From: Natronospira bacteriovora
GTDB lineage: Bacteria > Pseudomonadota > Gammaproteobacteria > Natronospirales > Natronospiraceae
Length of the DNA stretch: 64,000 bases
Assembly: GCF_030848495.1 (NCBI RefSeq)
Contig: NZ_JAVDDT010000002.1
Coordinates: 1-64,000, forward strand
Reading direction: 5' to 3'
Under the pieces are notes generated by a model. That model saw only the letters and a list, made by a program, of their open reading frames with translations, had not been told where the DNA came from and did no database searches. The position numbers and the translations under genes are program-made. Positions 17,174 to 54,558 of this stretch are shown here, piece after piece (the stretch's first letter is position 1; every line of letters begins with the position of its first letter).

Positions 17174-17276
17174 GTCGTTGTCGTTGTCGTTGTCGTAATC
17201 GTAATCGTAATCGGCCTTTCGATAAGACGAAAAATCCGACAACGACAACGACAACGACAACGACTACGACTACGAG
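17174..17276. repeat. GTNRTC hexamer hairpin element, copy 2
   Basis: Left arm 17174-17222: GTTGTC units, then three GTAATC units, then GGCCTTTCGA. Right arm 17235-17276: GACAAC units, then GACTAC units, ending ACGAG. The hexamer order of the two arms does not mirror, so pairing is imperfect. It lies between the CC-ending gene and the ArsA-like gene and ends 33 nt before the latter. Confidence 0.9.
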
Positions 17277-24665: not shown

Positions 24666-24697
24666 TTGCGATGGAGGGATCAGCTCTGGGAGGGAAG

Positions 24698-25600
24698 ATG
24701 ATACTCGGGTATCTGCTGTTGCTGGGGACGGTCTGGTCCGCCCAGGATTACCCGGTGGAAGCCGGCTATGCCCCGGGTGGTGAGCGCGCCTGTGTCATGT
24801 GCCACATGCGGGAGCCGGATCATCCCCTGGCGGCCATCAACAAGACGCCCCATGGCATGCTGGGAGACCCCCTGAGTCCGGCGGCCGACCGCCAGTGCCA
24901 GGCCTGTCACGGCCCCAGCCTTGCCCACCTTTCCGTGCGAGATGGTGTGCGTCCCCCACCGGCCGTTTCCTTCAACCGGAACACGCCGGCGGCGGACGCC
25001 AATCGCGCCTGCCTCAGCTGTCATGACGATGCCGCCCAGCGCCATTGGCGGGGCAGCGCCCACGAGTTCAATGACGTTTCCTGTACCGACTGTCACCAGT
25101 CCCATGTGGCCCGTGATCCCATGATGGCGAGAGCGAGTCGTGACCGGGTCTGTCTGGATTGTCATACGCGGGTGCGTGCCGAGATCCACCGGCCTTCCAC
25201 TCACCCCATGCGGGCGGGCCAGATGAGCTGCAGTGACTGCCATGCCCCCCACGGCAGCATCAGTACGGGCGAGCTGCGTTCAGCCTCCCTGAACGAAACC
25301 TGTTACAGCTGCCATGCCGAATATCGTGGCCCCTTCCTCTGGGAGCATCCGCCGGTGCGCGAGAGCTGCAGCAACTGCCATGAGCCCCACGGTGCCGTGC
25401 ATGACAATCTCCTGCGTTCCCGCGGGCCACAGCTCTGCCAGCAATGTCACTCGGCCGCCTTCCATCCCAGCACGGCCCTGCACGGCGGTGATGTTCCGCC
25501 TCGTGGTGCGTCGGCCTCCATGCTCCAGCGCAACTGCATGAACTGCCACACCCAGGTGCATGGCTCCAACCACCCCTCCGGCGTGGGGCAGACACGATGA
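24698..25600 (+). CDS. DmsE/MtrA-type decaheme c-type cytochrome
   Basis: A 300-residue periplasmic cytochrome with a short signal peptide (MILGYLLLLGTVWSA). It has exactly ten CXXCH haem sites: CVMCH, CQACH, CLSCH, CTDCH, CLDCH, CSDCH, CYSCH, CSNCH, CQQCH and CMNCH. Size and haem number fit the MtrA/DmsE/PioA family, which threads haems through an outer-membrane MtrB barrel. The start at 24698 is chosen for AGGGAAG upstream and the clean signal peptide; ATG at 24671 is the alternative. ATGA overlap couples it to the MtrB-like gene. Probable oxygen-repressed control by the upstream FNR-type site. Confidence 0.93.
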   Translation: MILGYLLLLGTVWSAQDYPVEAGYAPGGERACVMCHMREPDHPLAAINKTPHGMLGDPLSPAADRQCQACHGPSLAHLSVRDGVRPPPAVSFNRNTPAADANRACLSCHDDAAQRHWRGSAHEFNDVSCTDCHQSHVARDPMMARASRDRVCLDCHTRVRAEIHRPSTHPMRAGQMSCSDCHAPHGSISTGELRSASLNETCYSCHAEYRGPFLWEHPPVRESCSNCHEPHGAVHDNLLRSRGPQLCQQCHSAAFHPSTALHGGDVPPRGASASMLQRNCMNCHTQVHGSNHPSGVGQTR

Positions 25601-27786
25601 GTCTTTCGCCCCGGTCGGGTCGCTACTGGCTGCCAGTGCTGCTGCTGGCCCTGTCCTGGCCACTGGCGGCCGAGCAGAGCAGCGATGGGGACACGGGCTG
25701 GCTGCTGATGGACCTTGATCTTGGCCTGGGTTACCAGGACGGCGAGCTCACGGGTCTGGGCCGCAGCGACTACCTTGCTTCCGAAGGCTGGCGCGGGATT
25801 GGCGGCCTGTGGCTGGACTGGCGCAGTGAGCGGACTTCCGACGATCCCGCCCATTTCTTGCTGGACGCGGAAAGCCGCGGCCCCACAGGCCGCTGGCTCG
25901 ACATGAGCTATAACCGCCAGGGAGTCCATCGCACCCGCCTGCATTACCTGGGCCTGCCCCGCCGGCTGGGTGATGGGCTGACGCCTTACAGCGGCGCCGG
26001 CGGGTATGAGCTGCGTCTGCCCGACGACTGGGATGCCGCCGCCGGCACCTCCGACATGGGCGGACTGGATGAACCCCTCATGGTGGCCCCCTACGATCAC
26101 ATGCGGCGGGAACTCCGCCTTGCCCACGAGCGCACTCTGGATCAACGCTGGCAGCTGGGCACGGATTTCCGTGTCGAGCGCCGCGACGGGACCCGTCCCG
26201 TGGCGGCGGTCATGGGCATTACCGGCGGCAATACCCGTGCGGCACTGGTGCCGGCGCCGGTGGATTACGAGACCCGTGAAGCTGAAATCACCCTGCGTTA
26301 TCAGCGCGAGGGTTTCCATGCCGAAACCGCCTACTTTCTCTCCCGCTTTGATGGCGGCCGCAATCACATGCGTTTCGACAGCCCCTGGACGGATGTGGGA
26401 GGGTGGTCACCAGCTGCGTTTCATCCCGATGGCCGGGGCCATCTGGGCCTGCCTCCCGACAATCAGAGCCAGCAACTGCGTTTCGGTCTTGGACAGGTGC
26501 TGTCGTCCACCCTGCGACTGTCCGCCGACATGGCCATCGGGCGCACGGAACAGGACGAACCCTTCCTGGCCTACACCATCAATCCCGACCTGACGGTGGA
26601 AGAAGGCCTGCCCCGGGACAGCCTGGAAGGGCGGATTGATCTGTTGCGGATTCACGGCCGCCTGAACTGGCAGCCCATGCCCCGCCTGCGGGTGGATCTG
26701 CGTTATCGCCATGAAGACCGGGACAATCGGACGCCGGTGGATGTGTTCAATTACGTGGGTGGGGATGCCGCCAACCAGACGCCCGGTTCCGCCCATGGCC
26801 GTGCCCGGCTCAACCGGCCCATCAGTTTCACCGAGGATCGCCTGGATCTGGACACGGCCTGGCGACTCGCCGAAGGCGGGCAGCTGTCTGCCGGCTACCA
26901 GCGCCAGGCTATCCGCCGGGATTACACCGATGTGGGGCGTACCGAGGAAGACCGCATTCGCCTCGGACTTCGGCGCCCCCTGGGCGAACGCCAGCAATGG
27001 TCCTTGCGACTGGAACAGGCCTGGCGACGGGCCGATGATTACGATGCCACGGCCGATTACTTTCACAGCCATACCAGCGAATACATCGACACCGTGGACG
27101 AGGCCCTGCGCTTTGACAACCATCCCCTGATGTATCGCTACAATCTCGCGGATCGTGATCAGCAGCGGGTGGAATTGCGCTGGGATCTTTTCGCCGCCGA
27201 TGAGCTTCAGTTGGGCGCCGGCTATCAGTTCAGCCAGGAAGACTACGACAACTCACCTCTGGGGCTGGAGCGTGGCCATCGCCAGGGCTTTACCGCCGAC
27301 ATGGGCTGGCAGATCGGCAGTGCCTGGGCGCTGGATGCCTTTGCCAGCAGTGATCTCATGGAGGCGGACCAGAGCAATCGCAGTTTCCGCGGGGGTGGTT
27401 TCCTGGCCAGCGAGTTTCAGGATCCGGCCCGCAACTGGCGGGTGGAGAATCGTGACCGCTATCGCAGCCTCGGCAGCGGCCTCAACTGGCAACCACAGGA
27501 CGCCGGCTACCGCATCCGCCTGGAATGGGTTGAAAGCCGCAGCCGCAGCACCTTCGACCTCTTCAGTGGTCCCGCCCTGACACTGGAACCCCTGGATCCC
27601 GTGCGCACCCGCGGCCGGGTCATCACCCTCTCGGGCGAACATGAGCTTTCGGAGCGCATGGCACTGCGCTGGGAATGGTACCGCGACCACTTCAGCAGCG
27701 ACGACTGGGCCTGGGTCGACGTGGCACCGGACACCATCGAACGAGTCATCGGCTCCGGGCAGAGCCTGGGGTATGAAACCCTCGAT

Positions 27787-28056
<270 letters not shown>

Positions 28057-28153
28057 CTGCCATCGCTTGCGGGAGGGGGAAGGCTCGTGTAGCGTTAAAA
28101 AGGTCACTGAAAAGGGGGTGACAGGATAGTCAAAAAATGCAAGGAGCATTTAA

Positions 28154-29591
28154 ATGCGTAAGCTATTGATCTCTCTCTCTCTCTCTCTCTCTGATAGCCA
28201 GCCCGTTTGCCTCGGCTGAGGCAGCGAGCATTGAAGCCGGGCAGGTCAACGGCGAAGAGACCAGTCGCTGGATTGTTGTCTTTAATCGCAGTTCTGAAAT
28301 TCCCGCCGATGCGGTGCCGGACCTGACTGCACAACTGACGAAACGCATGGCCGTAGAGCCCTTGATGGTCTACCGCCATGCCGGTAAGGGTTTTGTGGCC
28401 GAGATGACGGGCCAGCAGGCAGCCACCCTCGCCAGCAACCCCAACATTCGACGGGTAGAGCGTGATCGCCGTGTGAGTGTACACGGCGCGGGCACCACCA
28501 GCTCCGGTGAGGACACGGTTCAGTATGGAGCCGACTGGAGCCTGGATCGCATTGATCAGCGTGATGGCAACCTGTCTGGTTCCTATGCCTTTGCCCATGA
28601 TGGCAGTGGTATCAATATCTACGTTATCGATACCGGTGTTAACGAGAACCACTCGAACTTCTTCACTGGCCAGGTCGAGCGAATTCATGACCGCTTCACT
28701 GATGAGGAGTTTGATGCCAGCTGCGTGAATAACGACCCCGAGCCGCCTTGCCCGCCGTATGAATGGCCGTGTGGTGACGATGGAATTCACGCCAATGGTG
28801 TCCATGATGAAGGGAAGCGATGGCATGGCACATCCGTGGCGGGCAAGGCGGCCGCGGCAACCTACGGGGCAGCGCAAGGCGCCTATGTCAAGGATCTGCG
28901 CGCTTTCGATTGTCGGGGGATTTCGTATGTCAGCGAGGTGAATGCTGCCCTTGACAGTGTTGCGGAGCATGCTCAGGCTCATGGCCAAGCCGCGCCCCTC
29001 GTGATGAGCTTTGGCTTCGATGAGACTACAAGCAAGGTGAGTAGTATTGAGGACAGTATCCGGGCACTGCCGGATAACGTCCTGCCAATTGCCTCGGCGG
29101 GTAACAGCAATACGCTGGCCTCGACCCAGGTGCCAGCCCGGATGTCGGGGGTGATTACCGTCGGGGGCACCAATAGCAGCGATATGCGCTACAGTAATTC
29201 CAACTACGGCAGCGCCGTCGACATCTTTGCTCCAGGCAGGGACGTGCAGACCCTGTGGGGTGACGGTGATTCGGAAACCATCACCGCCACCGGTACTTCC
29301 TATGCTGCCCCGCTGGTGGCGGGGGTGGCCGCCATCCACGCGAGTTCACTGAATGGCGAAATTAGAGCCGATAACCTGCGTCAGGCGATTCTCGGCAATG
29401 CCACCGAGGGTGCCCTGGGTAATCTCGAAGGCTCCCCGGATCTTCTGCTTTACCAGTGGTATCAATCAAACGACGACGATGATGGCGGTGGTGACGACGA
29501 CGATGATGATGACGACGAAGACGGCGGTGGTGGTGACTGGGGCGGCTGCCCCTACCAGAATGAAGACGGTGAATGGGTAATGTGCCCCTGA
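28154..29591 (+). CDS. Secreted subtilase (S8), out of frame through a CT tract
   Basis: Start ATG at 28154 with AAGGAG seven bases upstream encodes MRKLLISLSLSLS, then runs into (CT)11 (28171-28192) and a stop 24 codons in. The rest continues one frame over. With one extra CT the product is about 479 residues with a signal peptide ending SPFASA. An inhibitor-I9 propeptide (IVVFNRSSEIP to VERDRRVSV) follows, then a catalytic triad of Asp160 (VIDTG), His225 (WHGTS) and Ser383 (GTSYAAP), in restored numbering, and an oxyanion AGN. The tail is Asp/Gly-rich, perhaps Ca2+ binding, and ends in a Cys-bearing segment. Predicted exported protease. In this sequence it is off, or it reflects a tract-length error. 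Confidence 0.85.
28171..28192. repeat. (CT)11 dinucleotide tract in the subtilase signal peptide
   Basis: Eleven perfect CT units encode alternating Ser-Leu in the signal peptide core. Eleven units put the mature enzyme out of frame; 12 or 9 units restore it. This is the classic layout of a slipped-strand phase-variation switch. Confidence 0.9.
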
Positions 29592-29654: not shown

Positions 29655-31444
29655 ATGCGTGTTTTGAAATGCTTGTTGATCGCAAAGATGGTCCTCGCTG
29701 TCTCGGCGGTGGCCGCGGAGGCGCCGGATGACCTGCTGCCCTCGGGCGGTGCTTTGGTGCCGGCAGAAGATCTGGGCCGCTTCAATCGGGTCGAAGGCAG
29801 TGATGATTATGTGGTGATCGGCAATACCTGGGCCATCGGCGATCTCGGGGGTGTCCTTGTCATGGCGCCCGACGAGAGCGGTCAATGGGTTGAGGAGAGC
29901 TGGGTACCGGGCACGATGACGGATGCCTCGGCCGGCGCGGGTTTGGGCTCGGCCATTGCCATTGACGGTGACCGCTTCATTGTCGGCGCCTTCAACGAAG
30001 GTTATGTCCCCGGCCGCCGGGAGAGTGGGGCGGCCTTCGAATTCCGTCGGGACCCCTCAAGCGGGACAGTGGAGTTTCTGCGCCGGATTGACCGCCCCGA
30101 GCCGGACACCTTCTTCTTCGGAACCGGTGCGGCGATGGAGAATGGCTGGCTGGCGGTGGGCGCGGCTTTCGGTGAGCAGTTGCCCGACGAGCAGTATGGC
30201 GCCACCTATCTGTTTCGCTGGTCGGAGGCGATGGACGATTGGGAATACGTTCAGAAATTGCTGGCGCCGGATCGCGAGGACGGCGGTGACCGGGATGATT
30301 TCGGCACGGAAGTCCGCATGGCCTATCCCTGGCTGGCGATCGCGGCGCGCAATGCCTGGGTGGCGGATCAGGACGACCGCCTGGGTGCGATCTACCTTTA
30401 TCGGCATGATGCCGACAGCGACGAGTGGCGCTTTGAACAGAAACTGGTGGGCGATCCGCCCGAAGGGGGCCGTCAGCCGGGCAAGGTGCGGTTATTGTTC
30501 ATGGAAGAGAGGCATGTGTTGATGTCCGGTAATGAAGTAACAGCGGATACGCTGCTAAATAGGATGCACTTATATGTTTACGAGTTAGATGAAAATGATG
30601 ATCGCTGGGAGAAATCAGCGGTGCTATCGGAGGCAGACCCGCCACACGACCGGAATTCAAGTTTCGGTCGTGGCGGAGCCGTTTTTGGTGACGGAGAACG
30701 GTTGGCGGTGACCCATTCGACTCGATTGCGATCTTCCGGGGAAATGGATGGCGCGCTGCACATCTATGAGCGGGATGATAGTGCCTCTCAGGGCTGGGCG
30801 TTGATGGAAAGTCTCACGCCACCATGGCCTTCCTGGGGTTCCGGCCACGCACTGGCCTCGATGGTTGCGCCGGCGGGCCCGGAGGGTCTGGCGGCCCTGG
30901 CCGCCGGAACCGGTTCTCTGGGCCACTCCCGGGGCACGGTGTTTGTGTTTCAGCCGGAAGCGAAGCCGGTTCGCCTGAATGTGAGCGACGCCTGGCCGGA
31001 TGGCGATGGTGAGCCAGTCAGCGGACGTGAGTTTGAGTATCACTGGCGGGTGGCAAACGACGGTCCGGCCACCGCGACCAATGTCCACCTGCGTCTGGAC
31101 CTGTCTTCGGACGATTTCACGCTGGCGGGGGGCAGTGAGCCCTGCTGGTGGGACAGCAGTGCCGATGTCCATGTCTGCCTGATCAAGCGCATCCCACCGG
31201 GGGGCTATGAAACAGTGACCATCAAGCTGATTCCCGAGGCGGCCGGGGATTACGGGATTGACAGCCTGGTGGTATCGGATCAGCTTGACGAGCATCCGGA
31301 AGGTCGTGAAGCCCGCTTCAATCTCGGCGTGGCCGAGCCCGCCAGCGGCTCGAGCTCGGGTTGCAGTCTGGGCCGGGGGCCTTATGAACTGCTGGTGCTC
31401 GTGCTGCTGGCGCTGGCCCGACCTCGGGGGAGGAAGCGGGAGCC

Positions 31445-31457
<13 letters not shown>
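29655..31457 (+). CDS. Exported beta-propeller (FG-GAP-like) protein with C-terminal sorting tail
   Basis: About 600 residues. Signal peptide MRVLKCLLIAKMVLAVSAVAA. Repeated blades of the type LGSAIAIDGDRFIVGAF, GNTWAIGDLGGVLVM and GTGAAMENGWLAVGAAF (residues 40-430) indicate an integrin-like beta-propeller. A DUF11/CARDB-like beta domain with SGREFEYHWRVANDGPATATNV follows. The end is SSSGCSLGRGPYE, a hydrophobic LLVLVLLALA and a basic PRGRKR, like GlyGly-CTERM/JDVT-type sorting signals. The start is uncertain (TTG 29616 possible). It lies 63 nt after the subtilase. Its stop falls in the duplicated mtrB-end sequence. Surface role inferred. Confidence 0.75.
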
Positions 31458-31665
<208 letters not shown>

Positions 31666-50538: not shown

Positions 50539-50623
50539 TCGTTGTCGTTGTCGTTGTCGGCCTTTTTGCCTCGTTAGAAGAGCAGAAACCCGATTACGAC
50601 AACGACAACGACAACGAATACGA
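50539..50623. repeat. GTNRTC hexamer hairpin element, copy 5
   Basis: Left arm 50539-50560: GTTGTC units then GGCCTTTTTG. Right arm 50588-50623: CCCGATTAC, then GACAAC units, ending GAATACGAG. It is the shortest and most degenerate copy, with a 27-nt loop. It lies between rlmB and the rpsF operon, about 185 nt before rpsF. Confidence 0.85.
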
Positions 50624-54427: not shown

Positions 54428-54456
54428 CCCCCACACTTAACAGAATGCCCCGGCCA

Positions 54457-54558
54457 TCGTAGTCGTAATCGTAATCGTAATCGGGTTTTCCCGAGACTCG
54501 AAAAAAAAACACGACTACGACTACGACTACGACTACGACTACGATTACGATTACGAGA
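54457..54558. repeat. GTNRTC hexamer hairpin element, copy 6
   Basis: Left arm 54457-54488: GTAGTC and three GTAATC units, then GGGTTTTC. A nine-A run lies in the loop. Right arm 54511-54558: GACTAC units, then GATTAC units, ending ACGAGAGA. It uses GTAGTC where other copies use GTTGTC. The ending ACGAGAGA lies 6 nt from the alr start and seems to serve as its ribosome site. Confidence 0.9.

Follow-up and report, generated by a model that had tools for sequence, protein, structure and literature searches.

Slipped-strand phase variation is likely to control a family of secreted proteases in Natronospira bacteriovora. Three paralogous subtilase loci each appear switchable through a CT tract in the signal-peptide-coding start of the gene, and the bacterium probably flips the three proteases on and off at random by repeat number. 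We show the tracts themselves, their reading frames, the protein families, the paralogues, the selection on them and the exclusive placement of the tracts in the genome. Coordinates refer to the window, the whole stretch of 64,000 nucleotides analysed here, unless another contig is named.

Results

A CT tract at the start of a subtilase gene

The initial annotation of this DNA had picked out a good start codon and ribosome site followed by a signal-peptide core written in (CT)11. Both are present. The ATG has AAGGAG upstream (28141-28146) at a spacing of 7 nt, and the tract begins sixteen bases past the first base of the ATG. It comprises 23 bases (TCTC...T), a leading T and then (CT)11, and is 100% perfect. 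The elements of the locus are as follows.

28154-28156, + strand: ATG start codon of the subtilase, read from the sequence
28170-28192, + strand: (CT)11 tract, Ser-Leu repeats coding for the signal peptide's hydrophobic core
28217-28219, + strand: TGA at which the ATG frame closes when there are 11 units (the sequenced, OFF state)
28194-29591, + strand: intact subtilase frame, 465 codons, open throughout

At 11 units the ATG frame translates to MRKLLISLSLSLSDSQPVCLG, 21 residues. A gain of one CT unit, or a loss of two, fuses this frame to that of the protease and yields MRKLLISLSLSLSLIASPFASA, which looks like a normal signal peptide ending in Ala-Ser-Ala, followed by EAAS.... Twelve or nine units are ON in this reading and 10, 11 or 13 are OFF, which agrees with the earlier proposal that the frame is lost at 11 units and regained at 12. 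Within 28194-29591 the end of the signal peptide (ASA) is followed by an I9 propeptide, an S8 catalytic domain, an Asp-rich linker and the tail GCPYQNEDGEWVMCP; the frame join and Pfam matches uphold the order that had been described for the ON product, from Ala-Ser-Ala through propeptide to catalytic domain. A stop codon lies in the protease frame just 5' of the tract, so no upstream start serves that frame as sequenced and normal decoding would give no secreted product in this state. The first start past the tract, GTG 28314, has a predicted product that lacks a signal peptide, and a signal peptide is present only in the ON-length reading of the gene.

The product of 28194-29591 matched Pfam Peptidase_S8 (3.8e-26) and Inhibitor_I9 (3.7e-6), and an NCBIfam search returned only sub-cut-off S8 relatives. 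By alignment to the PDB, the closest solved structures were the keratinase 5wsl (E 6.9e-44) and aqualysin I 4dzt (E 1.7e-43), with homology in the catalytic domain. The initial annotation had also stated that the downstream frame is fully open with all catalytic residues, and we located each of them within the 465 codons (numbering counts from the frame after the tract, P0001).

28629-28631, + strand: catalytic Asp, D146 of P0001, from family assignment; invariant in four genus members
28824-28826, + strand: catalytic His, H211 of P0001; invariant in four genus members
29103-29105, + strand: oxyanion-hole Asn, N304 of P0001; invariant in four genus members
29298-29300, + strand: catalytic Ser, S369 of P0001, in the motif GTSYAAP; invariant in four genus members

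The Asp/His/Ser triad and the oxyanion Asn stand in S8 motifs, as in peptidase family S8 (proteinase K-like), and judged by its sequence the product is a proteinase K-like S8 subtilase with an I9 propeptide, predicted to be active and exported. It has catalytic-domain homology and the I9 propeptide in common with proteinase K-like subtilases such as 5wsl and 4dzt; unlike them, it carries the Asp-rich linker and a CPYxxEDGxWxxCP tail common only to genus members. Subtilases with this tail were found in this genome and in one same-genus genome (G001) only.

Three long CT tracts mark three paralogous subtilases

We searched the genome (2,998,048 bases in 15 contigs, one assembly) for CT tracts, and (CT)6 or longer occurred at three sites only: (CT)11 in the window, (CT)13 at C2:442989-443014 and (CT)7 at C5:112308-112321. 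When the window subtilase was used for a protein search, its two closest paralogues (49% and 55% identity) coincided with the other two tracts. We call the copies p1 (window), p2 (C2:442989) and p3 (C5); in protein, the three are 46-54% identical. All three tracts occupy the matching position, the signal-peptide-coding start of the subtilase, and those of p2 and p3 each follow a start codon and ribosome site. The signal-peptide reading is GTG-KYLLTLSLSLSLSLFLATPLNA for p2 and MKRIILLLSLSLSGPLQA for p3, with the tract coding for the peptide core. As sequenced, all three loci are out of frame, and one further unit (or two fewer) restores the frame at each, placing every locus one unit from a good predicted signal peptide with n-, h- and c-regions. 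At the OFF lengths, translation would stop within about 22-40 codons at the three loci.

Three sequence hallmarks of SSR-based phase variation are present. A perfect short tandem repeat whose unit is not a multiple of three lies inside the coding sequence at all three loci, some unit numbers lead to a full-length product and others to a premature stop, and the downstream frames are intact and under selection (p1 and p2 have no stops, p3 one TGA). A contingency-locus layout had been suggested for the window gene, and the case for it is now much stronger, with the only three long CT tracts of the genome marking the starts of three paralogous subtilases. The two sister loci, like the partner gene and flanking direct repeats described below, go beyond the initial annotation.

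Neither chance nor codon choice accounts for the tracts. First-order Markov copies of the window (n=40) never contained more than (CT)5, and the expected count of (CT)11 in 3 Mb is 1.3e-7. In the genes counted, TCT is the rarest Ser codon at 3% of Ser codons (8/254), too few for codon choice to explain the tract, and CTC makes up 15% of Leu codons. Random placement of three tracts at subtilase starts has a probability of ~1e-14 (arithmetic on three 60-bp targets in 3 Mb), and chance placement is excluded. None of 18 other genomes of the order contained (CT)7 or longer, and among 369 genomes sampled across the class only four, the present one among them, had (CT)9 or longer. Exclusivity to three sites, absence from the order and rarity in the class together tie the tracts to the subtilase family in this species and not to the genome at large.

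In the three other class genomes with (CT)9 or longer, we could identify no comparable gene start: one tract was near an open frame but outside any recognisable signal peptide, and the rest were at or near contig ends. Poly-G tracts of at least 9 also exist in the N. bacteriovora genome; four such loci were inspected and seem to lie between genes, next to hexamer arrays or immediately past stop codons.

Slippage, selection and the common OFF state

We propose that the CT tract would gain or lose units by slippage during replication in living cells. With 12 or 9 units, translation from the ATG would run through MRKLLISLSLSLSLIASPFASA and on into the propeptide (I9) and protease (S8), the product would be secreted, and cleavage of the I9 propeptide would activate the exported enzyme. 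At 11 units, translation would end after 21 codons and the exported protease would not be made; expression of the partner gene may also fall by polarity. The (CT)13 tract at C2:442989 and the (CT)7 tract at C5:112308 would carry a like switch, making this a family of independently switchable cassettes, and the cells would probably gain either by hedging their bets on an enzyme that is costly and shared or by varying proteolysis at the surface. The tract lengths favour slippage: among these paralogues of one assembly (there being one assembly per species), the unit numbers (11 in p1, 13 and 7 in its sisters) differ by amounts that are not multiples of three, and selection on the peptide alone would shift lengths by 6 nt. 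The MutS gene is intact, and slippage would have to act against working mismatch repair; a mutator background is neither needed nor implied.

Every copy is OFF and would be restored by an identical change in unit number, a pattern for which random phases give a probability of 1/27. It fits random switching only modestly and is likelier if culture selected for OFF, if repeats were systematically miscounted or if a slip occurs at the RNA level. We weighed each of these.

If sequencing or assembly had under-counted every tract by one unit, all three genes would be ON, and a systematic contraction would indeed leave each locus in need of one more unit. We consider such an artefact very unlikely: dinucleotide runs of 14-26 bp fit inside one short read, a (CT)7 run is seldom miscounted, and a miscount would not explain why the tracts lie nowhere else. 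Tandem arrays of the 7-mer CTCAGCA/TGAGTGC stand at the ends of contigs L091, L093, L094 and L100, from which it follows that the genome carries many such arrays. That contigs break in 7-bp tandem arrays suggests a short-read assembly, which, together with the ease of reading a 7-unit tract, disfavours a miscount.

The shared phase could also arise during decoding, by slippage of RNA polymerase or the ribosome on the CU repeat (net -2/+1), giving a fixed ON fraction with no change in the DNA. On a tract of period two, pairing of tRNAs or of the RNA-DNA hybrid could be re-established once a 2-nt slip has occurred, and the three loci share one phase despite their differing lengths. However, given that all are OFF, a matching phase has a 1/4 chance of arising anyway, and DNA slippage is the established mode at such tracts; we rate decoding slippage marginally below even the miscount.

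Decay of the family is the strongest of the competing accounts, although still improbable. The tracts would once have been in-frame Ser-Leu signal peptides that slipped a single time and are now fixed OFF, for example because the need for the proteases was lost in culture. Beyond the OFF state of all three copies, p3 has a nonsense TGA in its propeptide, the partner gene of p2 probably carries a 1-nt frameshift (one base apparently lost near the start), and the copy in G001 likewise has no in-frame signal peptide. Against this, the open frames of p1 (465 codons) and p2 (451 codons) are uninterrupted and still encode every catalytic residue. Between the window gene and p3, mismatch frequencies by codon position are 0.36, 0.29 and 0.57, with dN 0.41 and dS about 2; across the paralogue comparisons dN is 0.41-0.53, dS is about 2 or undefined (near saturation) and mismatches fall mostly at third positions. 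These comparisons support purifying selection in the past on the downstream frames, two of the three being intact, and they vindicate the earlier view, drawn from the window alone, that the gene is under selection. Three independent losses at exactly the sole three CT tracts would, moreover, still need hypermutable tracts, and a dinucleotide tract able to slip off can slip back. The accompanying assertion that the gene is not decayed is right about the window copy, whose frame is clean, and fails as a statement about all copies given the nonsense codon on C5; the protease family shows some wear and the window copy none. Slipped-strand switching at the DNA level remains the reading we prefer.

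A protease-partner cassette

In all four copies found, a gene for an FG-GAP protein lies 3' of the protease. The pair in the window is accompanied by the following elements.

27788-28053, + strand: left direct repeat, with the 3' end of the MtrB gene, a hairpin array and a duplicated cytochrome b5 3' end
28094-28125, + strand: upstream block with the inverted repeat GTCAC-N10-GTGAC
29655-31457, + strand: partner gene; its product is a predicted secreted protein, FG-GAP_2 / DUF11-like, that has a hydrophobic anchor at the C-terminus
31446-31663, + strand: right direct repeat flanking the cassette

The protease-partner pair sits between an MtrB/PioB porin gene and a cytochrome b5-like gene, which are directly adjacent (an empty site) in three relatives. 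The direct repeats around it span about 210-260 bp (about 260 bp on the left and 215 bp on the right), contain the ends of both neighbouring genes and are ~87% identical over an ungapped 130-bp part. This layout identifies the cassette as an apparent insertion between direct repeats; with the empty site in relatives, the bracketing repeats indicate that the pair behaves like a gained cassette, and recombination between them could delete it. The C5 pair is bracketed as well, by intergenic direct repeats of about 240-270 bp that are 89-96% identical (L043 2897-3128 and 6545-6787). No direct repeat flanks p2 (C2:442989), so bracketing by repeats is not a general feature of the cassettes. The subtilase-partner pair occurs once in G001, where the subtilase has neither a CT tract nor an in-frame signal peptide. 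A scan of genome contigs with the window protein recovered remote subtilases only, and no second strain.

The sole other genome copy of the 32-bp block at 28094-28125 is upstream of the C5 paralogue, so that p1 and p3 share it. It is likely to be an operator or promoter element; a promoter scan near the window subtilase gave nothing above chance. No NCBIfam model matched the partner protein, whose C-terminus, a hydrophobic tail with Cys and then basic residues (GCSLGRGPYELLVLVLLALARPRGRKR), resembles C-terminal sorting signals.

Other features of the region were recorded alongside the cassette. Convergent hexamer arrays, for example (TCGTTG)n(TCGTAA)n ... (CGACAA)n, recur between genes and form long hairpins (27833-27956, 31489-31566, 1075-1199, 17174-17275, 50539-50623 and 54456-54556); the hairpin at 27833-27956 has 57-nt arms that are 88% complementary. 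More such arrays occur elsewhere in the genome, beside poly-G tracts. A multihaem cytochrome gene followed by the MtrB/PioB porin gene (24671-27825) is kept in three relatives and may encode an outer-membrane electron conduit.

Discussion

Repeat-based contingency loci are known mostly from host-adapted pathogens, in which they act on antigens, adhesins and restriction enzymes. In Neisseria opa genes, CTCTT repeats code for the signal-peptide core and toggle paralogous surface adhesins independently. The subtilases resemble opa in that the repeat codes for a hydrophobic core and a paralogous family is switched independently; they differ in having a dinucleotide, not a pentamer, and in encoding enzymes, not surface adhesins. 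Several outer-membrane protein genes of Helicobacter pylori, sabA, babB and hopZ, have CT repeats. The oipA gene of the same species has a CT-repeat switch in its signal-sequence-coding region (PMC10564699). As in the subtilases, the tract in these H. pylori genes lies in the 5' signal-peptide code, unit number sets the frame and there are several paralogues per genome. Their products, however, are outer-membrane adhesins of a host-adapted pathogen, whereas the subtilases belong to an unrelated bacterium and come with a partner gene in a cassette that can be flanked by direct repeats.

A parallel in cargo is NalP of Neisseria meningitidis, an exported subtilisin-like protease with a poly-C tract subject to slipped-strand mispairing in the coding region (PMC5472700). 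The window gene also encodes an exported subtilisin-like protease with a slipped-strand switch in its coding region, as we read it, but NalP is an autotransporter lipoprotein, has a poly-C tract and is a single gene, not a cassette family. Neither Pfam nor NCBIfam detected an autotransporter domain in the window subtilase, whose frame ends in the Asp-rich linker and a short Cys tail; with no C-terminal beta-barrel translocator domain found, it does not qualify as a NalP-type autotransporter. The window system works in the manner of the oipA and NalP switches and belongs to neither gene family.

The type of switch is known; the novelty lies in the protease cargo, in the restriction of the tracts to one whole family and in the arrangement as cassettes. 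We found no published SSR-switched secreted protease outside pathogens, in a literature coverage that was incomplete. Taken further, the two-gene protease cassettes may form a mobile family, each with its own CT switch and together capable of 2^3 combinations of expression, a contingency system for a public good, and not for host-facing surface antigens, in a free-living bacterium; we put this wider picture forward as plausible but short of probable. The switch has apparently been taken up by a whole secreted-protease family in a genome otherwise devoid of CT tracts and whose relatives lack them. If the switching is real, a protease-negative genotype in the reference genome may be just one phase, and the tracts would offer a genetic handle on the sharing or withholding of costly extracellular enzymes.
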